Source: Vibrio superstes (GTDB lineage: Bacteria; Pseudomonadota; Gammaproteobacteria; Enterobacterales; Vibrionaceae). Taken from it: a stretch of 64,000 bases of DNA. A program made the position numbers and the translations under genes. Shown here in pieces: positions 4,199-58,568 of this stretch (the stretch's first letter is position 1; each line of letters begins with the position of its first letter). The notes beneath the pieces are model-generated. The model searched no databases, was not told the DNA's origin, and worked only from the letters and a program-made list of their open reading frames with translations. Location: NCBI RefSeq assembly GCF_003569005.1, contig NZ_BCUR01000001.1:873893-937892 (forward strand), in the 5' to 3' direction.

Positions 4199-6064
4199 CT
4201 AGAAACGGTAATCGATGCCCGCGTAGTAACTTCTCTCTGCACCAACCCAATAAAACTGGTTGAAGGAGTCGTAACTGGTTTCGTAGTCTTCATCAAATAA
4301 GTTATCGACTTTAAACTTAACGTCCAAATTGTCTGTTACTTGATAAGAGCCCGCAAAGTCTACGGTGATGTAAGAGTCTAGCTCTACAGTGCCTTTAGCA
4401 TCAGGGCGTTCACCTGTGTAGTTTGTGGCTAGAGATAGACCGAGTGCTTCGTAGTTATACCCAGCAATCCATTTGTAGTTTTGTTTTGCTCTGCGGTCTA
4501 GTTGACGGTCGTTGGTGCGATCTTGTGGATCTTTCCAATCACCTACTAGAGTATGACGAATCGGACCAGTATCGAAATCGAGGCTTAACTCGATACCCTG
4601 AATACGTGCTTCTTCTACATTGGAAGGAACGAAAGTTAGTGGGTCAGCAACGATAAGATTTTCAATATCATTTTGGTAAGCGACTAACTGCCAAGTGAAT
4701 AAGTCGTAGTAACCGTTCAATCCAACTTCAAAGGATTCGGATTTCTCAGGCTCCAAATCTGGATTACCTGAACCACCAAAGGCATCAGAGTAAAATAGGT
4801 CAAAGAATGTTGGTGCACGGAAGGCAGTACCATAATTACTGGTTAGCTGTATTGAATCAGTAATAAACCAGCCTGCTCCAATACCCCATGTCGTGTTGCC
4901 ACCATAGGCACTATTCTCATCATGACGAACACTTGCCTCTACCAGCACAGGGGATAAATCTATGGCCGTAGTAACAAACACACCTGTGTTATTGCGTGTG
5001 TTTTCTGTGAAATCTTGTACTGGTGTACCGTAGATCTCACCAGAATTATTCGCCTCATCATAGGAGTAATCTACGCCACCGTTTAACGTCACGGCATCAA
5101 TACCTGTATAGGTATTTACCCAAAGTACTGAGGTACGTTTTGAATCAATAAAGCTTCTAGGTGCATTGGTGACGTCATCTCCGTCACTTTGCTCTTCAGC
5201 AGAAAAGTTGATTTGCAGTGACGAGTTAAAGTCATCAACCAGGTAGTTCACATTACCAGAAACAATATAGCTTTCTGTTTCTTGACGCTTTGCAGTACCA
5301 GCAGGACCAAAGTCTCCGACATACTGGTTCTCATAGCGTTGCCAAACGCCGTTGAAACCCGCACTCCAATTGTTATTGATCTGTTTAGTCACGCCACCTG
5401 TTGCAAACTGAGATTTGTAACCAAAGTCTTGATCAATGTCTTGGTCGGTAATGTTGTAGCCTTTACTGCCCTCATTGCTTACTACGATATGACCTTGAGC
5501 GGAATCGGAGAGATCGCCAGCTGAACGCCAACCTTCTTGATGGTAATTGTTTGAACCGCCATTCAGGGTCAGTTCATGCACTGATTCATTGCTTGGTTTA
5601 GTGATAATGGCAATAACACCGCCGATAGCATCTGCGCCATAAACAGCCGCTCGTGGACCTCGTACCACTTCAATGCGTTCGATAGCAAAAGCAGGAATTA
5701 ATCCTAGCGTGTTGTATGTGCCACCCGCAGCAGTGTTTAGACGTACACCGTCTAGCAATATGAGGGTTTGGTTGCTGTTAGAGCCACGAAGAAAAACACT
5801 GTTGTTGCTAGCTTTGGTTCCCTGTCCGCGAACTTCAACGCCAGGTAGTGTTTTTAACACATCATAGGCGCTATCCGCTTGCAGTTGTTTTATTTGTTCA
5901 CGTTCAACGACGCTAACAGAGGCTAATGCAGAGGTTTGAGTTTGTTCAAAACGGTTTGCTGTGACGACAATGGTTTCATCAACTTTTGTTGAATCAGTAT
6001 CTTGGGCAAAAAGTGCAGGGGCATACAGCGAAACAATAGCTGTTGCCAGAATGGATTTATTCAT
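4199..6064 (-). CDS. btuB: TonB-dependent vitamin B12 outer-membrane receptor BtuB
   Basis: 621 residues. Signal peptide about 1-20 (ending LFAQ), a TonB-box-like DETIVVTA, a plug domain (about 40-150) with GVEVRGQGTK and GPRAAVYGADAIGG, then a 22-strand barrel ending in an aromatic residue (IDYRF). It transports cobalamins across the outer membrane using TonB energy. The assignment is strengthened by the cobalamin riboswitch and attenuator directly upstream. An AGGACT ribosome site precedes the ATG at 6064. No other B12 uptake genes are adjacent. Confidence 0.95.
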   Translation of the reverse strand: MNKSILATAIVSLYAPALFAQDTDSTKVDETIVVTANRFEQTQTSALASVSVVEREQIKQLQADSAYDVLKTLPGVEVRGQGTKASNNSVFLRGSNSNQTLILLDGVRLNTAAGGTYNTLGLIPAFAIERIEVVRGPRAAVYGADAIGGVIAIITKPSNESVHELTLNGGSNNYHQEGWRSAGDLSDSAQGHIVVSNEGSKGYNITDQDIDQDFGYKSQFATGGVTKQINNNWSAGFNGVWQRYENQYVGDFGPAGTAKRQETESYIVSGNVNYLVDDFNSSLQINFSAEEQSDGDDVTNAPRSFIDSKRTSVLWVNTYTGIDAVTLNGGVDYSYDEANNSGEIYGTPVQDFTENTRNNTGVFVTTAIDLSPVLVEASVRHDENSAYGGNTTWGIGAGWFITDSIQLTSNYGTAFRAPTFFDLFYSDAFGGSGNPDLEPEKSESFEVGLNGYYDLFTWQLVAYQNDIENLIVADPLTFVPSNVEEARIQGIELSLDFDTGPIRHTLVGDWKDPQDRTNDRQLDRRAKQNYKWIAGYNYEALGLSLATNYTGERPDAKGTVELDSYITVDFAGSYQVTDNLDVKFKVDNLFDEDYETSYDSFNQFYWVGAERSYYAGIDYRF

Positions 6065-6089: not shown

Positions 6090-6113
6090 AAAAACGCTTA
6101 TGGTTGCGTTTTT
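6090..6113 (-). terminator. Attenuator hairpin of the btuB riboswitch
   Basis: AAAAACGC and GCGTTTTT pair across an 8-base loop. On the minus strand the stem ends in a run of T and stands between the aptamer and the btuB ribosome site, about 25 bases before the ATG. It fits an intrinsic terminator that forms when cobalamin is bound. Confidence 0.7.
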
Positions 6114-6120
6114 TCTTACT

Positions 6121-6310
6121 GGCAGGTATTCGGACTAATGAGCACTGTAGAGGAATCCCTACAACCTAGCGTCTCACTTCCCGCAATAGGCTATTGCAGT
6201 GTGCAGGGTTACCCCTTAAGACGTTCGTTCTCAAATACCGCTGCGCGTCAGTTTTGGATTCACACCAAATTCCCTTTTAAGCCTGAAATCTCCGATTTCA
6301 TGACACCAGC
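6121..6310 (-). promoter_or_regulatory. Cobalamin riboswitch (aptamer) for btuB
   Basis: Read on the minus strand, the leader shows the conserved blocks of the B12 aptamer in order: GGGAA, GGTGTGAATCC, AACTGACGCGCAGCGGTA, and at the 3' end the B12-box-like TAGTCCGAATACCTGCC. The length of about 190 nt is normal. Bound cobalamin should reduce btuB expression. Confidence 0.92.
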
Positions 6311-6389
6311 GGGGGGAGAGTTTATAGAGTGTTAAAGGGAGTGTCTAGTTCCCTGAAAGACTTGTTAAGTGTGACGAAATGTAATGTTA

Positions 6390-19589: not shown

Positions 19590-21158
19590 ATGTCATTATC
19601 GAAGAAAATTCTTTGTATTTTATTACCTGTGTTGATTGCGATGGTCGTTGTCAGTTTTTTTGCGTTGTGGCGATATGTCCTTCCTGTTTTTGTGCAATTG
19701 GAACGTGAAGATGCGATAACAAACTTTGAGCGTGTTGCTGCTCGTTTTCAGGAAGATATCGAAGATTTGGACTTGCAAAATAAAGACTGGGGCGCTTGGG
19801 ACGCTACTTATTCCTTCATTCAAGGAGAGAATCCCGACTATATCGCTGGTAATTTGGGTGTAAATTCATTTAGAAATGGTCAGTTTGATTTCTTGTTCTA
19901 CTTTGATGAGGCTCAGCATCTGTATTGGCATGGCATTTATGATCAAAACGAGGATATGCTGGTTTATGACGCTGCCTTTGTTCAAGAGGTTGTTGACCGA
20001 CTGGAGCACAAACTCGGTGAACAAAGGTTAAATCTATTTAGTCGTGATACCCATTACATGGGGTTTGTGCTTTTAGAAGGTAAGCCCATCGTTTACTCAA
20101 TCCGTCCCATTTTAACCTCGAGAGAAGAGGGGCCTTCCAAAGGGTTTTTGTTGCGTGGACGCTATATTGATACCAATTTGATCGCTGATTTTATCCGGCA
20201 GACTCATGTGCGCTTTGAGATAAAACCTGTAGAGGGCTCCTTGGCGACAGGTCACACTGAGTTGATGGTGAAGGAATTGAATGAAGATACCTTGGTGGTT
20301 TCTCGTTATGTATACAGCTACGGTGTCCCTATTATGTTGGTGGAGTCCTACTTTCCTCGAAACATTAGCCTTCAGGGCAAGGTGGCTATTCAAACCGCTT
20401 TATTTACGAGTATCTTGCTCGGTTCTCTGATGCTGGTGGCGCTTTGGTTCACCCTGCGAAAGATCGTGCTAGAGCCGGTCAGTCGTCTGACTGATAATGC
20501 CTCTGCCATTACAGAAACGAAGGACTATAAGCAACGTACGGAGATCATGTCATCAGATGAGATTGGAGAGCTATCGCGGCAGTTGAACAACATGCTAGAT
20601 GTAATTGAGAACCGAGAAGCGAGCTTGGAGCATGTGCTTGATAAGTTGAAAACCTTGTCAATGACGGATTCTTTGACCCAAATTCCTAATCGTCTAAAAT
20701 TTGATTCTGTTTCTGAATTGGAATGGCGCAGGATGCTACGTGAAAATCAGCCTCTTTCAATCATCATGTGTGACGCCGATTACTTTAAACAATATAACGA
20801 CCACTATGGACATGTAGAGGGTGATGAGTGCTTGGTAGCTATAGCCAAAGTGCTTTATGAGAGCGTGGCACGCCCTGCCGATTTGGTGGCCCGCTATGGC
20901 GGGGAAGAATTTGTGATTCTTTTGCCCAGCACTGATGTAGAGGGTGCGAGATATCTTGCTCAAACCATCCTCGAAAAAATATCTTCGCTACAAATCCCCC
21001 ATGAGAAAAGTCAGGTGTCGCCCCATGTGACGGTAAGTGCTGGTATTGCGAGCGCTGTGCCAAGCTCAGAGAACTCACTTCGACAGTTGATTCTAGATGC
21101 GGACAAAGCCTTGTATCAGGCCAAGAAGAACGGTCGCAATACGTTAGCGACCAATTAA
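19590..21158 (+). CDS. Diguanylate cyclase with CHASE4 sensor and HAMP
   Basis: 522 residues. Membrane helix about 8-30, periplasmic CHASE4 domain (about 35-265) with the family motif NKDWGAWDATYSF, second helix about 268-290, HAMP (about 290-345), short coiled coil and a GGDEF domain (about 350-520). The active site is GGEEF at 437-441 and the inhibitory I-site RPAD is at 428-431, so it should be an active, product-inhibited c-di-GMP synthase. It may feed c-di-GMP to effectors such as LapD, but nothing in the sequence ties it to one. Confidence 0.93.
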   Translation: MSLSKKILCILLPVLIAMVVVSFFALWRYVLPVFVQLEREDAITNFERVAARFQEDIEDLDLQNKDWGAWDATYSFIQGENPDYIAGNLGVNSFRNGQFDFLFYFDEAQHLYWHGIYDQNEDMLVYDAAFVQEVVDRLEHKLGEQRLNLFSRDTHYMGFVLLEGKPIVYSIRPILTSREEGPSKGFLLRGRYIDTNLIADFIRQTHVRFEIKPVEGSLATGHTELMVKELNEDTLVVSRYVYSYGVPIMLVESYFPRNISLQGKVAIQTALFTSILLGSLMLVALWFTLRKIVLEPVSRLTDNASAITETKDYKQRTEIMSSDEIGELSRQLNNMLDVIENREASLEHVLDKLKTLSMTDSLTQIPNRLKFDSVSELEWRRMLRENQPLSIIMCDADYFKQYNDHYGHVEGDECLVAIAKVLYESVARPADLVARYGGEEFVILLPSTDVEGARYLAQTILEKISSLQIPHEKSQVSPHVTVSAGIASAVPSSENSLRQLILDADKALYQAKKNGRNTLATN

Positions 21159-33302: not shown

Positions 33303-33363
33303 TTATTTGGCAGAGTATAGCTTTCAGCTTATAGCCGTCAGCAGTCAGTTCAGAGCTAAAATA

Positions 33364-34096
33364 GTCATCTCCGAGTTCTCTTATCGGAGACCTAGTTATG
33401 ACGTTGCTAGCTAGGCAGCACAGCAGATGCTCGATAAAACACTTCGAGCATGACGACGTTGGGCTTTGTCAGTCATGAGTGCTTTTATCGGGGATCTAGT
33501 TATTAGATTGCTAGGTAGACAGTACAGCAGATGCTCGATAGAACACTTCGAGCATGACGGAGTTCGGCTTTGTCATTCCCGAGTGCTTTTATCGGGGATC
33601 TAGTTATTGCATTGCCAAATAGGCGGCGCAGCAGATGCTCGATAAAACACTTCGAGCATGACGGAGTTGAGTCCTGTCATCCCGAGAGCTTTTATCGGGG
33701 ATCTAGTTATGACGTTGCTAGGTAGACAGCACAACAGATGCTCGATAGAACACTTCGAGCATGCCAAAGTTGGGCTCTGTCATCCCCGAGTGCTTTTATC
33801 GGGGATCTAGTTATTACGTTGCTAGGTAGACAGCAGAGCAGATGCTCGATAAAACACTTCGAGCATGACGACGTTGGGCGCTGTCATCCCCGAATGCTTT
33901 TATCGGGGATCTAGTTATTACGTTTCTAAGTAGACAGCACAGCAGATGCTCGATAAAACACTTCGAGCATGACGGAGTTGGGCTTTGTCATCCCCGAATG
34001 CTTTTATCGGGGATCTAGTTATGACGTTGCTAGCTAGACAGCGCAGCAGATGCTCGATAGAACACTTCGAGCATGACGAGGTTGGGTTCTGTCATC
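33364..34096. repeat. REP-like hairpin array 2 (seven units, 104-bp period)
   Basis: Seven tandem units. The marker TATCGG begins at 33382, 33486, 33590, 33693, 33797, 33901 and 34005, giving steps of 104, 104, 103, 104, 104, 104. Each unit has a forward hairpin (ATCCCCGA, loop GTGCTTTTA, TCGGGGAT) and a reverse hairpin (ATGCTCGA, loop TAAAACACT, TCGAGCAT). Unit 1 has CTCCGA paired with TCGGAG, a double change that keeps pairing. It fills the gap between the diguanylate cyclase stop and the ABC exporter promoter. Nothing in it looks coding. Confidence 0.93.
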
Positions 34097-34117
34097 TCCC
34101 TACCTCGCAAGCAGTCA

Positions 34118-35998
34118 TCAAGAAGCAGCACTCATAATGGCAAGGTTCTTACCATTTTGTTTGCCTCTATCCGTGGCTTGTAGCGATGACGAAAGTGTCT
34201 TATCTACTGAATCACGTAGGTGAGATACGCCTATGCTGACAGTAAAGTTAACGTTAACGTTATCAAAGGCAAACTTATGTCTTTCGATAGCCTCACGAAG
34301 GTTTTCAGCCAAGCTAAATGCATGTTGCTGATCAACGGCATGATAAAGCACGCAGAATTCATCTCCGCCGGTTCTGGCCGTAGATAGTGTCGACGATGCA
34401 GGGAAGTGCTTTGTGATCACTCTCGACATCTCTAGTATCAACTGGTCGCCACAGGTATAACCGTATTGATAGTTGATCAGCTTCAAGTCATCCACATCAA
34501 TCGTGAGCAGATACACATCACGGTGACCCTTGTAGCGACTGATCTTATTGCGCAGTGTAAACAAATTATCTTGGTTTGTTGTAGCATCACGCAGTGAAAT
34601 TTGTTGCTGGAACAGTACGTTAGACAGAGAAGTCTCGATATACGTTTGTAGTAGCTTCATCAAACTTGAGAATGTCTGAAATCTACTTTCAATGAATATC
34701 ACCCCAGTAAGCCCATTGTGCCCATGTAAAGGAATACGGTAATACTTGGCACTAAACTGAATTTTATTTGCCAGAGGATCGTTACTCGCTGAGCGTTGAT
34801 ATTTCACTTTACTTGCCAGTACGTCGAGAGCGTACTCTTTATCAATGAGGATTAATTGCTCCTGTCCATGGTAATCAATGGTGTAAAACGTGTGACTGTC
34901 ATGATTGTACAGACAAAGCTGCACACGACGGCGTGTACAGAACCTTCCCAATAGATACTGAGTTTGTTTTTTGAACTCTAGCAAGCTCGTTGCTTTTGCT
35001 AAGTCGGAAAGTGCTATTTGTAACTGCTTATTCAGGTAATGAAAGACAGATACAAATAACAATAAGCTCAGTGCCACAAAGGCGATAAGCAGCATTGAGT
35101 AGCTGTGAGCAAACAGTTCAGATCGAGATATTGACGAAAAGTAAATCCAATTCATGCTGTTTTTGGCGTTGTAGGACGCAAGTTTTGCCTCGCCATGGAA
35201 CAAGTAATTGATTGAACCATAGAGTTGATTGTTTGGCAGTACAGTATTTGGATTAAACGTATAGCTTGGTGTATCAGAAAAATAATAACTAACGGGTTGA
35301 GCTCTTTCATCTTGTGAGACCTCACCTGCCATGGAATACTTGTAAACCACCGCCATTTCCCCAATCCTATTTGGGTTAGCGTGGAGTATGACCCTGCCTG
35401 AAGTCCTATCAACAATAAACACATTACCACTGTTTAGAGTACGCAGGTCGATGAAAGACTGGCTTGCATACATTAGATCAAATTCAATAATGTACTGTGG
35501 GATTCCTGCTGGATTTTTCTCACGTAAACCGACAACCCAACGGCGATTCTGACTGCGATAAAGACTGGATATCTGATATCGATTGTCCATGAAACTGATA
35601 TCGGTCCAGCTCGCTTCTGGCATATCAAACTCAGTGGCTTCGGTGTTGTACATGCTGGCATTAAAAATCGCAGTTTCAGATACGGATGTGTTTGTGCTTG
35701 GGTCATAGCGCAAAATATCATTGTAATTCTCTGTATTACGTATGACATCGACAGCGTTTAGGTTTGAAGCACTAGAATCTTCCAGTTCAGCAGAACGATT
35801 TAGAGATGAGAAAATATTGACGCTATTTTTAAGTTGCGCCTGGATCAGCTTAGAAGCCGTTCTTAGATTAGCTTGTGTCTGTTTCAATGCATCATCTTTA
35901 ACACTGGCATAGTGTTGATAAGCAACGAAAATTAATAATGTACTGAGCACGACCACATAGGGTCGCATAAGCCGAATAATAGTTCTTGGTAAAGCCAT
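34118..35998 (-). CDS. Diguanylate cyclase with periplasmic sensor, no I-site
   Basis: 626 residues. Membrane helix about 8-26, periplasmic dCache-like sensor (about 35-295, with NRRWVVGLREKNPAG and SGNVFIVDRTSGRVILH), second helix about 303-325, a linker of GAF-like size (about 330-470) and a GGDEF domain (about 475-625). The active site is GGDEF at 544-548. The residues five positions upstream (STLSTART) lack the RxxD inhibitory site, so product inhibition through that site is not expected. Array 2 begins 22 bases past its stop. Confidence 0.9.
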   Translation of the reverse strand: MALPRTIIRLMRPYVVVLSTLLIFVAYQHYASVKDDALKQTQANLRTASKLIQAQLKNSVNIFSSLNRSAELEDSSASNLNAVDVIRNTENYNDILRYDPSTNTSVSETAIFNASMYNTEATEFDMPEASWTDISFMDNRYQISSLYRSQNRRWVVGLREKNPAGIPQYIIEFDLMYASQSFIDLRTLNSGNVFIVDRTSGRVILHANPNRIGEMAVVYKYSMAGEVSQDERAQPVSYYFSDTPSYTFNPNTVLPNNQLYGSINYLFHGEAKLASYNAKNSMNWIYFSSISRSELFAHSYSMLLIAFVALSLLLFVSVFHYLNKQLQIALSDLAKATSLLEFKKQTQYLLGRFCTRRRVQLCLYNHDSHTFYTIDYHGQEQLILIDKEYALDVLASKVKYQRSASNDPLANKIQFSAKYYRIPLHGHNGLTGVIFIESRFQTFSSLMKLLQTYIETSLSNVLFQQQISLRDATTNQDNLFTLRNKISRYKGHRDVYLLTIDVDDLKLINYQYGYTCGDQLILEMSRVITKHFPASSTLSTARTGGDEFCVLYHAVDQQHAFSLAENLREAIERHKFAFDNVNVNFTVSIGVSHLRDSVDKTLSSSLQATDRGKQNGKNLAIMSAAS

Positions 35999-44404: not shown

Positions 44405-44506
44405 CGCCTAAAAAATCATATGAACTACTTCCTGCCAGGAAGTGGTTTTTTTGTCTGTAATCTATTGTTAATGATGATTTTCTTTGGGATTTGCAAGGAT
44501 GGCAAG

Positions 44507-45157
44507 ATGACACAAAGGATATTACAGCCCTTTGTCCTATGCACACTACTCGTAGGGTGTTCGCAGAAATTTAAAGATGTGGGAGTGACAGTTGAGCAGT
44601 CGGTGTGGGGAGCGGAAGATGTCGTTGTTGCGAATGAGCGATTACAAAAACTGCCTTATGCCAGCCTTTATGCGCGTGTTAATCAAGGTCATCAGATCCA
44701 TATGGTGCTGGCTTATGCTGATGCACTCTCTAGTCAATCCCCAGTTGAATTGAAGTGGGTAGCCCAAGATAGAAGCGTGATTGTCACTGAAGGTGGATTA
44801 ATCACAAAGACGTTGGCCATGCCCATTGCTAACCTAGCGGAGTTGACTACTGAACAATACCCTTTCGGGTCAGAGACCCCTGTATCATGGCAAGCTACAT
44901 ATGATTGGCAACCCGGCTATCGCTATGGCTATCAAGCAACGATCAGTCGGAGTTTAGTAGGGCGTGAAACGGTTGATACCCCCCTGCAACAATTTGAAAC
45001 CAGTCATTACATCGAGACAGTGTATTTCAACGTTCTTGATACAGGTTTTGAAAATCATTTCTGGGTAGATAGTGATGGGAGGGTGATTAAAACCATTCAA
45101 CATATAGGCCCAGACATGAGCACTATCGAGCTCTTGTTAATCCGCGACTTTGGTTAA
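44507..45157 (+). CDS. gfcB: GfcB/YjbF-like lipoprotein
   Basis: 216 residues from the ATG at 44507, with AGGA about 8 bases upstream; an upstream in-frame ATG at 44420 gives a non-lipoprotein tail. Lipobox LVGC (Cys17). The body has beta-rich segments typical of the YjbF/GfcB family (YASLYARVNQGHQIHMVLAY, SVIVTEGGLITKTLAMP, FWVDSDGRVIKTIQHIGP). The family is needed for group 4 capsule or exopolysaccharide assembly at the outer membrane. It is 102 bases after gfcA. Confidence 0.85.
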   Translation: MTQRILQPFVLCTLLVGCSQKFKDVGVTVEQSVWGAEDVVVANERLQKLPYASLYARVNQGHQIHMVLAYADALSSQSPVELKWVAQDRSVIVTEGGLITKTLAMPIANLAELTTEQYPFGSETPVSWQATYDWQPGYRYGYQATISRSLVGRETVDTPLQQFETSHYIETVYFNVLDTGFENHFWVDSDGRVIKTIQHIGPDMSTIELLLIRDFG

Positions 45158-45174
45158 TGGGCTGAAAGTGATCA

Positions 45175-45954
45175 ATGATTAGCCCTCGTTTGATAGCGCC
45201 CATTTATGTTGCCTTCTTATCGATGCTCTGTATAGGGAAGGCCTTGGCTGCGCCGATAACCGTAGAGTTGCCCAATCAAGAGACAGCCCTTTATTACTCG
45301 AGGGCTGTGCGACTAAGCCAAGTACTGATAGATGCGCAAAGGATTGAGCCTAACAGGTTTGCGCTCGCGAATCACTTAGCTTTGTTAGATAAAAAATCGG
45401 AGATGACAACTGAGAAAAAGGAAGTTTTCAATCAGCTTGAACAGCGAGCCAGTAAGCCCAACAACGAGAGTTTAAATCAATCATCCCAAGCGATTTTAGA
45501 ACAGCTTAAGACGTTTACTTATCTTAGAAGGCTACCGTACAGACTTGATGCTGACTGGGCTCGAAGCCAAATATCAACGGACCCTGTTTTAGCCTTTCAA
45601 AATGAAAACACCGAGCTTCGTTTTCGCCTATTACAATCAACCAGACCCACACAAATTCGATTGATGGGAGCGATAGATAAACCCAGCCTAGTGCCATTTG
45701 AGGCTCATTGGCAGCTTTCTGACTATCTAGATAATCATCATATAAACCTGCTATCTGGAGCTCAGAAAAGCCTCGCTTTTGTCATACAGCCAGATGGCGA
45801 GATGATACAACTACCTTATGGCTGGTGGAACGGGAAAGAGGTCTACTTTGCCCCAGGTGCGACTATTTTTATTGGTCTAAGGAGCCTTGCTTGGGAAAAC
45901 GAGGAACTCAACCTGCAGATAGTCGAATTGCTCACTCATAAGGTGGGGCTATGA
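45175..45954 (+). CDS. gfcC: GfcC/YjbG-like periplasmic capsule protein
   Basis: 259 residues. Signal peptide about 1-25 (ending ALAA). Two ubiquitin-like (SLBB-related) domains are expected: the first after PITVELPNQETALYYSRAVRLSQVL, the second near FVIQPDGEMIQLPYGWWNGKEVYFAPGATIFIGL. These features match GfcC, a periplasmic partner of the polysaccharide export machinery. It starts 17 bases after gfcB, and its stop overlaps the next start by 4 bases. Confidence 0.85.
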   Translation: MISPRLIAPIYVAFLSMLCIGKALAAPITVELPNQETALYYSRAVRLSQVLIDAQRIEPNRFALANHLALLDKKSEMTTEKKEVFNQLEQRASKPNNESLNQSSQAILEQLKTFTYLRRLPYRLDADWARSQISTDPVLAFQNENTELRFRLLQSTRPTQIRLMGAIDKPSLVPFEAHWQLSDYLDNHHINLLSGAQKSLAFVIQPDGEMIQLPYGWWNGKEVYFAPGATIFIGLRSLAWENEELNLQIVELLTHKVGL

Positions 45955-48134
45955 GGTTGCGATATGGTGTCGTTATTGGACTGACATTGTTGGGTTCTAT
46001 AAGCCGTGAAAGCTTGGCCGATGATCTCTTTTATAGCGCGCAAGCAACCCCTTCTCAGTCTGATTTTGGTGGTGTTGGCCTAATGCAAATGCCCACAGGC
46101 AGAGTGGCCAGAGAGGGAGAGTTTAGCCTGAATGGCACTTGGAACAACGAATACCATTTTTACAGCATTAGCTTACAGGTGCTTCCGTGGCTTGAGACGA
46201 CAGTGCGTTACACGTTAGTACAAGATTTGCTTTACAGCAGTGACCCTGAGTTTAGTGGCGATAACGAATTGGCGGACAAGGCGATTGATTTTAAGATTCG
46301 TTTACTGCAAGAGAGTCGTTATATTCCCGAATTCTCCATTGGCTTTAGAGATTTTGGTGGTACTGGTTTATTCGATGGGGAGTTTATCGCCGCCAGCAAG
46401 CGTTTTGGTCCTTTTGATGCAACGGTTGGAATGGCTTGGGGATATTTAGGGCAGAGTGGCAATATCTCTAATCCTATGTGCTCCGTGGCGGAACGATTTT
46501 GTGAAAGGCCGAATGACTATAGTGGCAATGGTGGCCAGTTTGATGTGGATCGTTGGTTTTCTGGGCCTGCTTCAATCTATGCAGGGTTAGAGTATCAGAC
46601 CCCGTTTGAACCGCTCTCGTTTAAGGTTGAATACGATACCAATGATTACTCACAAGATGCGCCAGTAGTCAGAGGCACAGCCGATATGACTCAGCATATT
46701 CCTGTGAACTTTGGAATGGTTTATCGCGTAGATGATTGGGCTCAAATTCGAGTCAGTTATGAGCGGGGCGATACGCTGGCGTTAGGTGTAACCTTATCTA
46801 CTAATTTTAATGATCTATACGCTACCTGGGTTGATAAGCGTCCGCCGCAACTAGCTCAACAAAGAGGCTCCTCTTCTGCTACCGATTATGAAAAGCTGTC
46901 CCAAGAGCTCTATGACGTAGCGGGTTATAAGGTGCACAGCATCAGGCAAGGCGAGCAACGAATACTCATTTCTGCAGAGCAAGAAAAATACCGAGATAGA
47001 GACATTGCTCGAAATAGGGCAGCGGTCATTACGCTCAACCATACGCCCTCTTCTGTAAATACGATCTCTATTGTTGAAACTAATAAAGCTCTGTCACTGA
47101 CCGAGACGGACATTGATAGTCAGACTTTTGTGGCGGCACATAAACAACAGTATCTTGATGTTAACTATGATGATGCAGTCTCAGTTAGCAATATCGATGA
47201 CGTTAATTCTAGCCCGCAGTATGAAGATTTCGATCGCTTCGACTACTCCTTCTCACCACAGCTGATTCAGTCATTTGGGTCTGCTGAGAGCTTCTATTTG
47301 TACAGTATTGGTGTTAATGCGGATGCCGGATATTGGCTTACCTCTAATCTGCAGATGAGTGGCTCGCTGTATCTCAACCTATTCGACAACTACGACAAGT
47401 TTAATTACATAGCCCCACCGGATGGCACGGATGTGCCTAGGGTGCGAACCCTATTTAGAGCATACGTGGATGAGAATCGTCTACGCATGAAAAACTTGCA
47501 GCTCACTTGGTTTGAAGATTTTGGGTCTAACTGGTACACGCAATTGTATGGCGGGTATTTGGAAATGATGTTTGCAGGAGTCGGCGGAGAGGTCTTATAC
47601 CGCCCCTTGAACAGCAGTTGGGCGTTTGGTGTTGATGTTAATCTCATTTCCCAACGCGACCCTGAATCATGGTTCGGGGTCTTTGATAGTTCCACTCAAT
47701 ATAGTGAGGTAGATCAGCGCTACTACAACGTTATCGACCAAGGTACTACAGGGTTTGTGACTGCTTACTATGCCCCTAAGTGGTCTTTACTAGACGATAC
47801 CTTGTTTAAGGTCGGCGTTGGTGAGTTTCTAGCCGGTGACTACGGTGCGCGCTTTGATTTCTCCAAGCAATTTGACTCAGGTGTAATTGCGGGAGTCTTT
47901 GCTAGTGTGTCTGACTTAACACCCGAAGAGTATGGTGAGGGGAGCTTTACCAAGGGTTTTTATGTATCGATTCCTTTTGATGTAATGACAGTGAGACCAA
48001 GCCAGAATAGAGCCAATTTTAATTGGCAACCCATCACTCGAGATGGCGGACAAATGCTGATGCGAAAATACGAACTCTTTGAAGTGACAGATGCAAGAAG
48101 CCCTTGGTATCAAAGGCCTCCTTCAGTTCGTTAG
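45951..48134 (+). CDS. gfcD: GfcD/YjbH-like outer-membrane barrel protein
   Basis: 727 residues. Signal peptide about 1-23 (ending SLAD). The YjbH domain begins FGGVGLMQMPTGRVAREGEFSLNG, and barrel strands of aromatic/polar pattern run to the end. A central periplasmic-like part (about 300-430) lies between two barrel segments, as in YjbH. It is expected to help polysaccharide cross the outer membrane. Last gene of gfcABCD; gfcE (export channel), etp and etk are not present, so export must use machinery elsewhere, or the operon works like the stand-alone yjbEFGH of E. coli. Confidence 0.87.
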   Translation: MRLRYGVVIGLTLLGSISRESLADDLFYSAQATPSQSDFGGVGLMQMPTGRVAREGEFSLNGTWNNEYHFYSISLQVLPWLETTVRYTLVQDLLYSSDPEFSGDNELADKAIDFKIRLLQESRYIPEFSIGFRDFGGTGLFDGEFIAASKRFGPFDATVGMAWGYLGQSGNISNPMCSVAERFCERPNDYSGNGGQFDVDRWFSGPASIYAGLEYQTPFEPLSFKVEYDTNDYSQDAPVVRGTADMTQHIPVNFGMVYRVDDWAQIRVSYERGDTLALGVTLSTNFNDLYATWVDKRPPQLAQQRGSSSATDYEKLSQELYDVAGYKVHSIRQGEQRILISAEQEKYRDRDIARNRAAVITLNHTPSSVNTISIVETNKALSLTETDIDSQTFVAAHKQQYLDVNYDDAVSVSNIDDVNSSPQYEDFDRFDYSFSPQLIQSFGSAESFYLYSIGVNADAGYWLTSNLQMSGSLYLNLFDNYDKFNYIAPPDGTDVPRVRTLFRAYVDENRLRMKNLQLTWFEDFGSNWYTQLYGGYLEMMFAGVGGEVLYRPLNSSWAFGVDVNLISQRDPESWFGVFDSSTQYSEVDQRYYNVIDQGTTGFVTAYYAPKWSLLDDTLFKVGVGEFLAGDYGARFDFSKQFDSGVIAGVFASVSDLTPEEYGEGSFTKGFYVSIPFDVMTVRPSQNRANFNWQPITRDGGQMLMRKYELFEVTDARSPWYQRPPSVR

Positions 48135-51965: not shown

Positions 51966-53351
51966 TTAGAAGATTAGGTGCGCCACACCTGCGATAACTG
52001 GCAGGGTGATCAAGGTTCTTAGAATGAAGATGATGAACAGTTCACCGATATTTACTGGAATCTTACTACCAAGTAGTAGAGCCCCCACTTCTGACATGTA
52101 GATAAGCTGTGTTACCGACATCGCTGCAATAACGAAGCGCGTTAGTTCGCTATCGATAGAAGCAGCCAGAATAGATGGAATGAACATATCAGCAAAACCA
52201 ACGACGATAGTTTGAGATGCCGCTACTGCTTCAGGGATAGCAAGAAGCTCAAGATAAGGGACAAATGGTTTACCCATAATCGCAAATACGGAGGTGTATT
52301 CAGCGATAACCAATGCGATTGTACCTAGGCCCATAACCACAGGTAGCACACCAAAAACCATATCTACTGCGTTTTTAACGCCTTCTTTAGCCACTGCGCC
52401 AACTGAAGTAACCTGACCTGCTTTTCGTAGTGCCAAGTCCATGCCCCAAGAGAAGGTCGAATGGCCTGCAGGAATTGCATTCGCATCATGGTTTGGTTTA
52501 GAGCCATCAATGAATACATCTTTCTTACGGCTTAATGGAGGCAGACGAGGAACAATCACAGCCGCTACAAAGCCCGCTAAGCAGATAGCGCCATAGAAAG
52601 GTAGGAATAGGTGCTCTAGTTCAACTTGAGCGATAACAACCAAGCTGAAGGTAATAGATACAGCCGAGAATGTCGTACCAACAACAGCGGCTTCACGCTG
52701 GGTGTAAAACTTGCTTTCGTATTGCTTGCTGGTCATTAAGATACCAACACTACCATCACCTAACCAAGATGCCATACAGTCGATAGCAGAACGTCCTGGA
52801 AGGTTAAATAGCGGACGCATGATCTTGCTTAATAGGGTGCCAAATAGTTCTAGCAAGCCAAAATTAAGTAGGAAAGGAAGAAGCAAGCCTGCAAAAATGA
52901 ATACAGAGAACAACGTTGGCAACAATCCGTCAAGAACCAGTCCGCCCGTGTTTTCTTCCCAGATGGCTTCTGGGCCAACTTGAAAATAGGTTAGCGCGAC
53001 AGCAAGACCACCGATAATACGCACGGTAAGCCAAAGTGGAGAAGGCTTGAACAATCCATGTAAAAAGTCGTTATCTGCGATAAAGCGTGGCGTTTTGATA
53101 GCGCACAATAGTGACGCTAGTGCCATACCCGAAATGATCAACGTGATAATGCCAATCAAGCTACCATCTAACGCGCCTTGAAGGGTTTTGGCTAATACAG
53201 CAACAGGAATCGTTAGGTTACCGTCATAGCTGATTGGAGCCATGAATAAGAACAACCCGATGATAGAAGGGATGAAGAACATCCAGAAATTGCCTTTTAC
53301 AGGCTGCTCTGCATCGTTCGATGCTGGTTTGTTTGTTGTGTTAGTTTGCAT
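51966..53351 (-). CDS. YjiH-family membrane protein with nucleoside-recognition (Gate) domain
   Basis: 461 residues, about ten to eleven membrane helices. The Gate-domain hallmark GRSAIDCMASWLGDGSVGILMTSKQY is present, as is a second conserved region VGFADMFIPSILAASIDSELTRFVIAAMS. The YjiH group is annotated as an uncharacterised transporter; substrates are unproven. Monocistronic, with terminators on its 3' side. Confidence 0.82.
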   Translation of the reverse strand: MQTNTTNKPASNDAEQPVKGNFWMFFIPSIIGLFLFMAPISYDGNLTIPVAVLAKTLQGALDGSLIGIITLIISGMALASLLCAIKTPRFIADNDFLHGLFKPSPLWLTVRIIGGLAVALTYFQVGPEAIWEENTGGLVLDGLLPTLFSVFIFAGLLLPFLLNFGLLELFGTLLSKIMRPLFNLPGRSAIDCMASWLGDGSVGILMTSKQYESKFYTQREAAVVGTTFSAVSITFSLVVIAQVELEHLFLPFYGAICLAGFVAAVIVPRLPPLSRKKDVFIDGSKPNHDANAIPAGHSTFSWGMDLALRKAGQVTSVGAVAKEGVKNAVDMVFGVLPVVMGLGTIALVIAEYTSVFAIMGKPFVPYLELLAIPEAVAASQTIVVGFADMFIPSILAASIDSELTRFVIAAMSVTQLIYMSEVGALLLGSKIPVNIGELFIIFILRTLITLPVIAGVAHLIF

Positions 53352-53571: not shown

Positions 53572-53970
53572 TTACAAGAAGTGTTCCATTTGTTCAGAAA
53601 ACTGCACCCAGTCATGTTTGCGCTCTTCGTAGACGGAAAAACTGGGTGGTGGAAAGTCTTGTACGTCGAAAACGCCCATGGGGATGATGGCATACTCCCT
53701 TGCTGCTGATAATGAAAGCAACATGGTTGTGCCACATGCAGGGCAAAAGCTGTGATTGACGGAGTTATTGCTGTCGGCAATTCGAGTGAATTGATTGAGG
53801 TCTCCATTAATGGTGACTTGTTCCAAAAGAAAACGAACTTGGACACCGAAAACACTTCCTGTGCGCTTCTGACAAGAGACACAATGGCATAAAGCTGAAC
53901 GGATAGGAGCGCCTCTAGCGATGATCTCAACCTGACCACAGCTACACGATGCCGTACGAACTTTCTGCAT
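53572..53970 (-). CDS. GFA-family zinc protein (glutathione-dependent formaldehyde-activating-like)
   Basis: 132 residues from the ATG at 53970, which has GGAGGG 8 bases upstream; upstream in-frame ATGs at 53985 and 54048 lack a ribosome site, and the latter lies inside a MITE. Zinc ligands are seen in CSCGQVEI, CHCVSCQKRTGS and FCPACGTTM. The family includes Gfa, but most members have no shown activity. The promoter is probably affected by the MITE that ends only about 32 bases upstream of the start. Confidence 0.85.
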   Translation of the reverse strand: MQKVRTASCSCGQVEIIARGAPIRSALCHCVSCQKRTGSVFGVQVRFLLEQVTINGDLNQFTRIADSNNSVNHSFCPACGTTMLLSLSAAREYAIIPMGVFDVQDFPPPSFSVYEERKHDWVQFSEQMEHFL

Positions 53971-54001
53971 TTTTGTTCCCTCCATGAAGCTGACAATACT
54001 A

Positions 54002-54277
54002 GGGTCTGTTGACCTTTTGCGATTAAATTTTGCTCGACTAGAAACCATTTAATCAAGGCGAGGGGCTTGCCGCCTAGTCATCTAAGCAAAAGACGCTCAA
54101 CGACGAGTAAATGGTTTCTAGCCGAGCCTTTCTTGCCGAGCCCTTCGGGTAGCGTTTGTTGGGCATTTCTACGGCGTTAGTCCCTTTTCATGTGGAACCA
54201 CCACACCTAAAAGTGACTGCCTTGTTTAAATACCCAACAAATCGCTACAAAAATAAACTCAAAAGATCAACAGACCC
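54002..54277. mobile_element. 276-bp MITE with imperfect terminal inverted repeats and TA target duplication
   Basis: The ends GGGTCTGTTGACCTTTTG and CAAAAGATCAACAGACCC are inverted repeats with one mismatch, flanked on both sides by TA. A second, internal inverted repeat of 19 bases with one mismatch (54033-54051 and 54108-54126; core CTAGAAACCATTTA) gives a nested hairpin. There is no transposase gene. Size and structure fit a non-autonomous element moved in trans. Confidence 0.85.
54033..54126. repeat. Internal inverted repeat of the MITE
   Basis: The arms at 54033-54051 and 54108-54126 pair at 18 of 19 positions around 56 bases. The segment between them includes GCGAGGGGCTTGCCGCC. Confidence 0.8.
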
Positions 54278-54383
54278 TAATCATAGCAATGAAACTTGGC
54301 CCAGCTAGGCCAAGAAATCAGGAAAATGTGACAATAAACAGCTGGCCTATAAAGATAGCAGGGTGAGATCTTCTACTTTGCTT

Positions 54384-54401
54384 GTGCGAGATCTCTTACA
54401 A
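54384..54401. promoter_or_regulatory. VarA/UvrY/GacA-like box upstream of csrB
   Basis: TGTGCG-N6-CTTACA matches the GacA-family consensus TGTAAG-N6-CTTACA at 10 of 12 positions. It is about 175 bases before the predicted csrB start, the usual distance for this class of sites. Confidence 0.65.
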
Positions 54402-54559
54402 AGTCGTAGGAGAATAGGATTATCTCAACCAGAAAATAACGGTCGATTTCACTTAAGGTATTGAATTTATTGCGATTGGTATTTATCTGAACAATTTTAG
54501 TGTTGAATGAAAGTCTCACATCTATTGTTAGTGAGGCCAAAAACAACGAAACTTAAGTT

Positions 54560-54943
54560 GTCAGCAGGAAGCAGGCATTATGGAATCTTCAGGATGGAGA
54601 GCAACGACTAGGATTGTCGTTGAAAAAGGATGTAGGACATTGTACGGATACAGAAGTTACTAGGATGGTAGCTTGCAACGGAAAGCAATGGACCCCTCTA
54701 GGACAGAGGAAAGGAACAAACATCAGGACGATGTAAAGGACACCGCTCAAGGAACAAGTGAGTGATACCAGTAAGGATATTGGTCAGCCAGGATAAGGCA
54801 TTGGACACCGCTAGGAAGGCGAGAAAGGATTAAGCTTAGGATAAGCACACTATCATGGATTAGATGCATGGAGCACTTTTAGTAGCCGGACTGCTGCGAG
54901 TAAGACTATAACCCCGATGGGCGCAAGCCCTCGGGGTTTTTCT
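54560..54943 (+). ncRNA. csrB: CsrB-type regulatory RNA
   Basis: About 384 nt with 26 GGA motifs, 17 of them AGGA, many shown in small hairpin loops (CTCTAGGACAGAGG, CATCAGGACGATG). It ends with AGTAGCCGGACTGCTGCGA, very close to the 3' part of E. coli CsrB, and a strong terminator. It should bind many CsrA dimers and free CsrA-controlled mRNAs. No reading frame of size runs through it. The start at 54560 is estimated from a -10-like TTAAGT and similarity at GTCAGCAGG. Vibrios carry several Csr RNAs; which paralogue this is cannot be told. Confidence 0.92.
54910..54943 (+). terminator. csrB terminator
   Basis: AACCCCGA and TCGGGGTT pair around an inner GGGC-GCAA-GCCC stem, followed by TTTTTCTTT. 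Confidence 0.93.
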
Positions 54944-54988
54944 TTGTCTGGAATTTGTTAAACCTTATGCCTACTTACTAATACTTCT

Positions 54989-55307
54989 GACTCAAAACGT
55001 ATCATCATTGAATTAAAACGCACCTCCATTGAACCAAAACGTCCCATCACTGACTCAAAACAGTCATCCCCGAGTGCCCCTATCGGGGATCTAAGTAGCT
55101 CAGCATTAGAAGAGGTCTCCGACTGGTACGCCAGCCCGGTGGTACGCCAGCCCGGTGGTACGCCAGCCCGGAAAAGACCTCGGAAACGACGGTGTAAATG
55201 GAGTGCAATGCTTCACTATATTAATAATCTCTGACTCAAAACGTATTATCATCGAACCAAAACGTACCGTCATTGAACCAAAACGTCCCATCACTGAATC
55301 AAAACAG
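54989..55307. repeat. 21-bp minisatellite of array 3
   Basis: Consensus about GAACCAAAACGTCCCATCACT. Copies at 54989, 55010, 55031 and partial at 55052; again at 55233, 55254, 55275 and partial at 55296. The period is exactly 21 in each case. Confidence 0.85.
55125..55171. repeat. 16-bp minisatellite in the reverse hairpin of array 3
   Basis: GGTACGCCAGCCCGGT occurs three times in tandem in unit 1 (the last copy without its final T); unit 2 has one variant copy (GGTGCGCCAGCCCGG). Confidence 0.88.
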
Positions 55308-55434
55308 TCATCCCCGAGTGCCCCTATCGGGGATCTAAATAGCTCTATAGTTGAAGAGGTCTCCGACTGGTGCGCCAGCCCGGAAAAGACTTCGGAGACG
55401 ACGGTGTAGATTTGGAGACGACGGTGTATTATTG

Positions 55435-57036
55435 CTACGAATTCTCAGTCTTGAAAATATGCACATCTCTTTGAGGGAACGGGATAGTAATGCCGTTCGC
55501 ATCAAACTGGCGTTTAATCTCTTCGGTTACGTCCCAGTACACATCCCAGTAGTCGTCGGTTCTTACCCAAGGGCGGACAATTAGGTCAACGGATGACTCG
55601 TTTAGCGTGTGTACACGTACATTCATTTCAGGATTTTTAAGTACTCTATCGTGGTTTTCTAGAACCTTGATCGCAATTTCTTTCGCAAAATCAAAATCAT
55701 CGGAATACGCAATACCAAACACCATATCGACACGGCGGACACGCTCTGAGGTCATATTGTTGATGACGTCACCCCAAATCTTATTGTTTGGAATCACTAG
55801 GGTTTGGTTATCTAGGGTACGGATTGTAGTTGATACCAAGCTCATATGACTGACGTTGCCTTGAATGCCAGCAACCTGAACTAAGTCCTTCACGTCAAAT
55901 GGGCGGTAGATAAGGATCATGAGCCCTGAAGCAAAGTTAGAAAGAGTGTCTTGCAATGCAAAGCCAATGATGACACCAGCAACACCAAAACCGGTGAGCA
56001 GTGGACCAAGGTTGATGCCTACCTGGGATAAAGCGATTAACAAGCCAATGAAGGTGACGGCTTTAGCAACGATGGAGATAAAAAAGTCCTGCATCAACAC
56101 ACTAAAGTCCATTTTTGAGTGTGATACGCTTTTCTTTACTAGGTTTGCCACCAACCTAGACAAAATGCGAGTGACCCAGAGTATCGCCAAGAACACCAGT
56201 AGCTTAACAAGCAGTGACGGCGAGTTATCTAGCGCCCAGTCTTTAAATGAGTCAAGCCATTCACTGAGTAAACCAAATGCTACATTCACATCTAGCACGT
56301 CTGCATTGATGTCACCTGTCATGGCAAATAAGGTTTGCTTATACTCGGTCACATCCAACCCAAACCCAGACATAAGAGTTACTGTGTTGTTCATGCTTGA
56401 GAGTAAGAAACGTTGCAGCTGCTCAAGGGCAAAAATTTGTTTTTCTAGATCCGCTTTATCCGCCTCAATGGTGTAGTTCATCCGCTCATCGAGTGCCTTT
56501 TTGCGACTATCTAGATAAATAACGATGTCGTATAGCACCTCACTACGTTCTTGAAGATCTTGCTTGAAGAGGGTTTCATCCAACTCTATTCCTAGAGTTT
56601 TAGCCCAACTAAAGGTCGTCGCGAGCTCGGTGTAATAGATATCAACACTACTGATCCTTTGCTGAGTTAAAAACTGGTATTCCGCCTTTTCAGTAGCATC
56701 CGCGTCTCGAGTGCGACTAAACAGAGTTTCCGCTTGTTTATCCGCATGAACAATCAGCGCTTGGAGCATGCTTGCTTGAGCTGGGACAAGAGTCTTTAAC
56801 TCTTTTGAGTCGGGAGACTGCGCGATTAGGTTTGAAATGCTATCCCTAAGCACAGCGTTCTTGCGACGCAATACGTCTTCAAGAAAAAGGGCTTGCTCTC
56901 CCTTTGCTGCCTCAATCTTTTCTAACTGAGCAGTAAACTGTTGTTGTTGTTTTAACAAATGGCTGGTATCAGCTGCTATGGCAATGCTTGCAAAGATATT
57001 GCACAGAAAAATGAGCAGTAGTAATCCTTTACGCAT
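55435..57036 (-). CDS. MscS-family mechanosensitive channel with periplasmic coiled-coil domain
   Basis: 533 residues. Signal peptide about 1-21 (ending AIAA), a long charged helical periplasmic region (about 25-250), then membrane helices from about 270 and the MscS pore segment GPLLTGFGVAGVIIGFALQDTLSNFASG. The beta domain reads FDVKDLVQVAGIQGNVSHMSLVSTTIRTLDNQTLVIPNNKIWGD. It should gate on membrane tension; the periplasmic domain may sense or limit opening. It is unrelated in architecture to the shorter MscS at 12436. Leftward, single gene. Confidence 0.9.
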   Translation of the reverse strand: MRKGLLLLIFLCNIFASIAIAADTSHLLKQQQQFTAQLEKIEAAKGEQALFLEDVLRRKNAVLRDSISNLIAQSPDSKELKTLVPAQASMLQALIVHADKQAETLFSRTRDADATEKAEYQFLTQQRISSVDIYYTELATTFSWAKTLGIELDETLFKQDLQERSEVLYDIVIYLDSRKKALDERMNYTIEADKADLEKQIFALEQLQRFLLSSMNNTVTLMSGFGLDVTEYKQTLFAMTGDINADVLDVNVAFGLLSEWLDSFKDWALDNSPSLLVKLLVFLAILWVTRILSRLVANLVKKSVSHSKMDFSVLMQDFFISIVAKAVTFIGLLIALSQVGINLGPLLTGFGVAGVIIGFALQDTLSNFASGLMILIYRPFDVKDLVQVAGIQGNVSHMSLVSTTIRTLDNQTLVIPNNKIWGDVINNMTSERVRRVDMVFGIAYSDDFDFAKEIAIKVLENHDRVLKNPEMNVRVHTLNESSVDLIVRPWVRTDDYWDVYWDVTEEIKRQFDANGITIPFPQRDVHIFKTENS

Positions 57037-57371: not shown

Positions 57372-58568
57372 ATGCGAGACCATAAAGTAATGCGATCATT
57401 CGTGAGAGTAGTCGATCGGCTACGCGCGTGGTTTTTCAGCTTGTGTTTTGGGGCGCTAGTCAGCGTGCCAAGCACCGTCTCGGCTGAAAATACTGAGTCT
57501 TCCTTCAATATGACCCAAGGTGTAACGGAGATAAGCGGCAAGGTGTATCACTTGCACATGCTTATTTTCTATATCTGCGTTGCGATAGCGGTTGTGGTAT
57601 TTGGAGTGATGTTCTACTCCATTATCAAGCATCGAAAGTCCAAAGGCGCAGTCGCCGCTAACTTCCATGAGAGCACTAAGGTCGAGATCATCTGGACCGT
57701 TATTCCAATTCTTATTCTTATCGGTATGGCTATTCCCGCGACCAAAACTCTGATTGAGATGGAAGACACCAGCGAGTCTGATATCACAGTTAAGATCACC
57801 GGTTCACAGTGGAAGTGGCACTACAGCTATTTTGACCACGACGTTGAGTTCTTCAGTTATCTCTCCACCAGTAATGAACAAATTGAGGGTACCGATGAAA
57901 AGGGAGAACATTACCTGCTGGAGGTAGACAATGCCTTGGTGCTTCCTATCGGTAAAAAAATTCGTTTCTTAATGACGTCTGATGATGTGATTCACTCTTG
58001 GTGGGTGCCTGATTTTGCAGTGAAAAAGGACACTATCCCGGGATTCATCAATGAGGCATGGACCAAGATCGATAAACCGGGAATCTATCGCGGGCAATGT
58101 GCAGAGCTGTGTGGTCGCAATCATGGCTTTATGCCTATCGTAGTTCAAGCTGTCGAGGCTGCAGAATTTGATGAGTGGATAGCGAACAAGGAACAAGAAT
58201 TGGCGGTGGCCAAACTCGAAGAGCAGAAAGCCCTAGAAAAAACCTTGGGCATGGATGAGCTGATGGCGTTGGGTAAAGACGTTTACGAAGGTCGCTGTGC
58301 AGTCTGTCATCAGAGTAATGGCTTAGGTGTCGCTAATGTGTTCCCTGCAATGAAAGGCAGCGCAGTAGTGCTTGGGGATGTGAATGGTCATATCGACATT
58401 ATCGTCAACGGTGTGAGTGGAACAGCGATGCAGGCATTTGGCACTCAGCTGACCGCTGAAGAAATCGCGGCCGTCGTCACCTATGAGCGCAATGCTTGGG
58501 ATAATAATACTGGTGATGTAGTGCAAGCTTCCGATGTCAGTACACAAATGAATGCGGAGGGTGAGTGA
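57372..58568 (+). CDS. coxB: Cytochrome c oxidase subunit II fused to cytochrome c (caa3 type)
   Basis: 398 residues from the ATG at 57372; AGGAGG stands 11 bases before it. Other in-frame starts (TTG 57297, ATG 57390) are possible. Signal/anchor region, two membrane helices, then the CuA domain with HSWWVPDF and the ligand set [14 protein letters not shown]-terminal cytochrome c domain carries the haem motif CAVCH and a distal Met in GTAMQAFG. The fusion is the mark of caa3 oxidases. It overlaps coxA by 4 bases. Confidence 0.93.

Follow-up and report, generated by a model that had tools for sequence, protein, structure and literature searches.

The window, that is, the whole stretch of 64,000 nucleotides analyzed here, carries a csrB small RNA gene together with a predicted upstream control region and an intrinsic terminator (Table 1). 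The genes on the upstream side encode a Gate/nucleoside-recognition membrane protein, which is presumably of the YjiH type, and a GFA-family protein; an MscS-family channel gene and the start of a cytochrome c oxidase cluster follow on the downstream side. Both flanks of csrB also hold dispersed repeats. Upstream, a 280-bp MITE-like element (54000-54279) with 31-nt terminal inverted repeats (84% complementary) ends approximately 100 bp before the VarA box, and at least 28 copies of at least 250 bases, including itself, are present in the genome. Downstream, 54986-55430 contains a 154-nt unit twice (the copies being 90% identical), and parts of this region have 72 matches in the genome, including itself; a tandem run resembling these repeats was seen by eye at approximately 33330-34110. 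Apart from CsrB, the window has one Rfam match over the gathering score, a cobalamin riboswitch (6104-6325, minus strand, 77.5 bits), which lies directly before a TonB-dependent receptor gene (4199-6064, minus strand).

Table 1. Coordinates of the csrB gene, its predicted control elements and the neighbouring genes in the window
Feature	Position	Strand	Basis or remark
Gate/nucleoside-recognition membrane protein gene, upstream neighbour	51966..53351	-	Domain and synteny
GFA-family protein gene (PF04828), upstream neighbour	53572..54048	-	Domain and synteny
VarA/UvrY/GacA binding box TGTGCGAGATCTCTTACA, predicted	54383..54400	+	0 mismatches to pattern
Possible third VarA half-site CGTAGGAGA	54405..54413	+	4 bp after box
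IHF-like site TAAGGTATTGAAT	54454..54466	-	One mismatch to YAANNNNTTGATW
-35-like TTGTTA	54525..54530	+	TTG at -35 (±1) in 66/74 loci
-10-like GAAACT, deviant	54548..54553	+	17 bp after -35-like word
csrB small RNA gene	54560..54945	+	Predicted transcript ~386 nt, 26 GGA; RF00018, conserved start
csrB intrinsic terminator (AACCCCGA...TCGGGGTTTTTCTTT)	54910..54945	+	Hairpin with T run
MscS-family channel gene, downstream neighbour	55435..57036	-	98% identical in V. breoganii
coxB (COX2), start of cytochrome c oxidase cluster	57384..58568	+	Domain and synteny

The Rfam covariance model of CsrB (RF00018) scores 85.4 bits (E 2.7e-21) at 54638-54947 (plus strand), above its gathering score of 71, and the match extends over model positions 1-356 of 356, that is, the full model. 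The original prediction of a CsrB RNA is therefore upheld by the covariance-model search, and the window csrB is an ordinary member of the known CsrB family. Since the match begins inside the gene and a conserved start, GTCAGCAGG, lies upstream of it at 54560 in the alignment of eight orthologues and in a comparison of 77 loci, the RNA is probably about 386 nt long, with its 5' end probably at this start; a length of about 380 nt had been expected. In addition, 26 GGA motifs lie within 54560-54943, exactly the number first counted, and 28 within 54384-54943, with 0 on the opposite strand. Dinucleotide-preserving shuffles of 54560-54945 (1000) contain 12.9 on average (sd 2.3, maximum 20), and 384-nt windows away from csrB, scanned in steps of 8 bases, contain at most 12, so a chance richness in GGA was rejected. 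In the predicted fold, 22 of the 26 motifs leave two or more bases unpaired and 10 of the 26 reach a hairpin loop, as in the family, where many GGA motifs lie mostly in loops or unpaired. The fold of 54560-54948 has an energy of -112.1 kcal/mol (z -3.4), and none of 100 shuffles was equally stable. The 3' end carries a Rho-independent terminator, which agrees with the strong terminator initially proposed; one pair of its stem is changed from G-C to A-U in two of the eight orthologues. Mean column identity across the eight genomes is 93%, and both sides are changed in only 3 of 102 predicted pairs, so this set says little for individual csrB hairpins. Among ORFs of 60 aa and longer, the only ones listed, none overlaps 54560-54945; the gene is non-coding on this measure, and a protein-coding reading was rejected.

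For the comparison of upstream regions, 77 csrB loci (L numbers; genomes have G numbers) were used: the window, 70 loci from this genome and 24 others of the genus, and six named loci. They include 71 of the 72 csrB matches in the 25 genus genomes; the sequence profile, which was built from the three csrB copies of this genome, missed L118 (25 bits) as well as eight loci outside the genus (L183-L185, L187, L189-L192), and L186, also outside the genus, matched without a 3' end and was left out. According to synteny, the loci were sorted by eye into groups B, C, D, E, F and W; L113 and L168 fit none of them.

The predicted VarA box starts one base to the left of 54384, where the original prediction had its region with a GacA-family site begin, and this site is otherwise as claimed. 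When up to three mismatches are allowed, the pattern has two matches in the window, namely, the box itself (0 mismatches) and the same site on the other strand (2 mismatches). An inverted repeat of the UvrY/VarA type, as found upstream of sRNA genes activated by VarA/UvrY/GacA, thus precedes csrB, with its centre at approximately -168 relative to the predicted start. A match to TGTNNGAGATCTCTNACA with 0 or 1 mismatch is present in 74 of the 77 loci; the exceptions are L177, which has too little upstream sequence before the contig end, L174 (2 mismatches) and L172 (3 mismatches). If no position is favoured in locating the RNA start, the box lies 157-161 bp upstream of it in 71 of 77 loci; with positions 155-172 given a slight preference, the number is 74 of 77. 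The loci outside this range are then L177 and two with spacings of 168 and 169 bp, approximately one helical turn longer. At the place of the possible third half-site, the word GT[AG][ACG]G, picked after the sequences had been seen, occurs in 68 of 74 loci, compared with 1.5% of windows elsewhere in the same spacers. The box agrees letter for letter with the predicted VarA site of V. cholerae, where, according to passages of PMC6550530, expression was minimal from fusions shortened by 50 nt that include the predicted VarA site. VarA would likewise bind the box in the window, and csrB would depend on it. However, passages of PMC6262261 describe one V. tasmaniensis csrB (csrB1) as VarA-independent despite its VarA box, so a box does not prove VarA dependence. 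The promoters compared below are the 74 with spacers of 157-161 bp, L113, L154 and L177 being left out.

Another finding is an IHF-like site between the box and the promoter, one mismatch away from YAANNNNTTGATW, which we take to be the IHF consensus. An IHF-like match with at most one mismatch starts at -108 to -105 in 58 of the 74 promoters, whereas 40 rounds of shuffles, which do not model the relatedness of the promoters, gave clusters of at most 5. When every promoter with 60% identity or more to one already kept is removed, 33 of the remaining 48 have the match at the same position (shuffles at most 4). Such a match somewhere in the spacer is found in 61 of 71 loci, but shuffled spacers also often contain one (mean 25.8, maximum 35); only the fixed position is striking. 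This position is occupied in 7 of 9 promoters of group W, 18 of 24 of B, 16 of 21 of C, 7 of 7 of D, 6 of 6 of E, 4 of 6 of F and 0 of 1 ungrouped; 16 of the 74 lack the site at -108 to -105, including L035, one of the eight close orthologues. When the spacers are aligned at their right ends, information peaks at approximately -106 to -89, at the TTG of the -35 and at the -10, and the first peak reads approximately TAANNNNTTG followed by A/T, presumably the reverse of the IHF consensus. Since the IHF-like site is found in all six groups, the layout of VarA box, IHF-like site and promoter is probably older than the divergence of these groups. By the same layout, IHF would bind upstream of the window csrB, and full expression may depend on it. 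According to passages of PMC4682653, full UvrY binding and the CsrB level in E. coli require IHF, but csrC does not; for V. fischeri, passages of PMC4573307 describe an ihfA allele whose effect on two traits was independent of GacA. In the literature searched, part of it in the form of passages, we found no description of such an IHF site for the csr genes of Vibrio; PMC6550530 and PMC6262261 each contain the word IHF (or ihfA) a single time, among their references.

The core promoter of the window csrB has an unusual -10 region. In all eight close orthologues, the window included, GAAACT stands 17 bp after a TTGT-type -35. The usual -10 form, TANNNT, is present in 24 of 24 loci of group B (L177 left out), 21 of 21 of C, 7 of 7 of D and 6 of 6 of F, as well as in 1 of 2 ungrouped loci, but in only 1 of 10 of group W and in 0 of 6 of group E, which reads TTTAAT. 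GAAACT keeps the A at place 2 and the T at place 6 and matches only three of the six consensus bases; transcription may therefore start elsewhere or be weak. Because it is identical in all eight orthologues, we read GAAACT as selected rather than decayed, and it could make the csrB promoter fully dependent on its activators. What is new here is the VarA/IHF-like/promoter layout shared by the genus, together with this conserved deviant -10 of the window csrB.

The genome (4.7 Mb, 5 contigs) is near V. breoganii, and the MscS neighbour is also 93% identical in V. inusitatus and 94% identical in V. comitans. It contains three csrB matches. Two lie on a 1.67-Mb contig, namely the window copy and a shorter match of 46.8 bits, which falls below the Rfam gathering score; the other, of 84.3 bits, is on a 2.89-Mb contig. 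The shorter copy, L113 (G000:C1:277030-277286), has 16 GGA in its last 390 nt and a VarA box with 0 mismatches; its spacing of 169 bp exceeds the usual distance by about one helical turn. The 1.67-Mb contig is taken to be chromosome 2, the smaller replicon, on the basis of its size and of the orthologous V. breoganii, V. comitans and V. inusitatus contigs, which are titled chromosome 2. The partners of a CsrB RNA are encoded in the genome as well: one csrA, a varA with an intact frame (427 bits, cut-off 280) and a varS/barA-type kinase (1371 bits, cut-off 890). The gene after varA was recognised by eye as uvrC. A disruption of varA was considered and rejected, as the listed TAG proves to be the in-frame stop codon that follows ...DTETL, and a TTG can serve as the start of the frame. 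With csrA present, the csrB RNA would be expected to bind and sequester CsrA.

The original prediction had also placed csrB among genes of c-di-GMP control in the window. The two diguanylate cyclases are real, as GGDEF proteins at 19590-21158 and 34118-35998, and so are the gfc genes, as members of the YjbF/GfcB, GfcC and YjbH families at 44420-48134. LapD holds only in part: the window edge cuts the gene, so that only an N-terminal piece (3-614), presumably of LapD, is present; the piece adjoins a BTLCP protease and an HlyD protein. A tie between these genes and the csrB RNA is a suggestion from proximity.

The location of csrB near mscS and coxBA on the smaller replicon is an unusual place in this Vibrio group. 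The order of yjiH-type gene, GFA gene, csrB, mscS, coxB and coxA is common to six named loci and G015, some of these loci being without the GFA gene or having extra ORFs between; G016 has no mscS next to csrB, and G014 has only the yjiH-type gene in common. Around mscS relatives, 12 named loci were scanned, and csrB adjoins mscS in the six closest (V. breoganii, V. comitans, V. inusitatus, V. ezurae, V. halioticoli and Vibrio sp. UCD-FRSSP16_30), with no csrB over the gathering score in the other six. The commonest other csrB locus is that of group C, which holds csrB in 20 of the 25 genus genomes. In this genome, G014, G015 and G016, by contrast, the genes of the group C locus are present in order and no csrB or box was found there; of the four, only this genome gave a match to the flanking gene F9, and here approximately 70 bp separate the matched parts of the two flanking genes. 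The two locations therefore exclude each other in the 25 genus genomes, the range of this check; G013 has csrB at neither. Moves of csrB are described for 13 other Vibrio and Aliivibrio genomes in passages of PMC6262261, so the process of relocation is known and the window case is an addition to it. Other arrangements were also seen. At the group C locus, L123 (G003:C1:2468201-2480818) has a pair of nearly identical csrB genes separated by approximately 2.3 kb, and three ORFs belonging to a single family lie close by; other families of the order have five or six csrB matches per genome (L185 in G033; L183 and L184 in G025), several of them close together in G033 and G025 and some of those of G025 overlapping.

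A tree of the 77 csrB genes unites the window copy and the seven orthologues closest to it in one clade of eight (100/100), attached at an unresolved fork whose branches are long; L154 and L158 fall elsewhere, although their neighbourhoods partly match that of the window csrB. In a tree of 68 genes, from which the long or odd rows L113, L121, L143, L152, L154, L158, L172, L174 and L178 were removed, the eight are again one clade, and its place is not fixed: when the clade is held with group F, C or B, p-AU is 0.285, 0.061 or 0.010, respectively. In neither tree had the bootstrap converged. The window csrB may have arisen by relocation from C, by relocation from F, or by loss and a new duplication.

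Taken as a whole, 54383-54945 is very probably a csrB gene that would be activated by VarA and IHF and whose RNA would sequester CsrA. Phosphorylated VarA would bind the inverted repeat, and perhaps the third half-site, centred approximately 168 bp upstream of the RNA. IHF would bend the DNA near -106, which would allow VarA to reach RNA polymerase at a core promoter composed of the TTG of the -35 and the weak GAAACT -10. With most of its 26 GGA motifs unpaired, the approximately 386-nt transcript would bind many CsrA dimers, and CsrA would leave its mRNA targets upon binding.

The replacement of TANNNT by GAAACT and the two other csrB matches in the genome would also suit a copy that is decaying or silent, its -10 lost after the move to the smaller replicon and its function carried by the other two. 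A dead copy would be expected to drift, however, and the conservation of the gene in eight genomes, all of which keep the box at the standard spacing and GAAACT although much of the spacer differs, makes such a decay very improbable. The same deviant -10, conserved in all eight, could instead be read by an alternative sigma factor or another activator in place of VarA and sigma-70, so that the signal differs from that of the sibling copies, and the VarA-independent, boxed csrB1 of V. tasmaniensis (PMC6262261, passages) offers a precedent. Against this stand a VarA box with 0 mismatches in all eight orthologues, its standard spacing and the TTG at -35, and we regard a change of regulator as unlikely. 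That the region is merely GGA-rich DNA with a chance match and no regulatory function, as the repeats in the flanks might suggest, has next to no probability given the full-length covariance match, the exact box, the terminator and the orthologues.

The proposed VarA- and IHF-activated csrB resembles known systems in several respects. Like csrB, csrC and csrD of V. cholerae (PMC6550530, passages), it would belong to a set of three copies encoding CsrA-directed sRNAs under VarS/VarA, with the same letters in the VarA site; its position near yjiH, mscS and cox and the deviant -10 are what was observed for the window csrB. Similarly, csrB1-4 of V. tasmaniensis LGP32 are sibling copies with upstream VarA sites that change place by duplication and relocation (PMC6262261, passages); the genomes in Fig. 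1 of that paper do not include the window clade, and its main text mentions neither halioticoli nor breoganii. No literature on V. breoganii with CsrB was found. In E. coli csrB (PMC4682653, passages), an 18-nt inverted repeat also lies far upstream, centred at -183/-182 compared with approximately -168 here, a partial half-site, TGTAGGAGA, follows 5 bp after the box compared with 4 bp here, and a putative IHF site lies between box and promoter, the role of IHF being demonstrated there and deduced here.

Genes such as csrB are missed by protein annotation, and their copy number and control bear on the strength of the Vibrio answer to VarS/VarA signals. The layout shared by most of the 74 promoters predicts that IHF is a general co-activator of the Vibrio csr RNAs. 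For the lineage of V. halioticoli and V. breoganii, we tentatively suggest, as a possibility that is still rather doubtful, that csrB left an older locus, moved to a place close to the terminal oxidase genes on the second replicon and gained a conserved non-standard -10 that would keep it silent without VarA and IHF, which would make it an all-or-none, enhancer-like csr copy.
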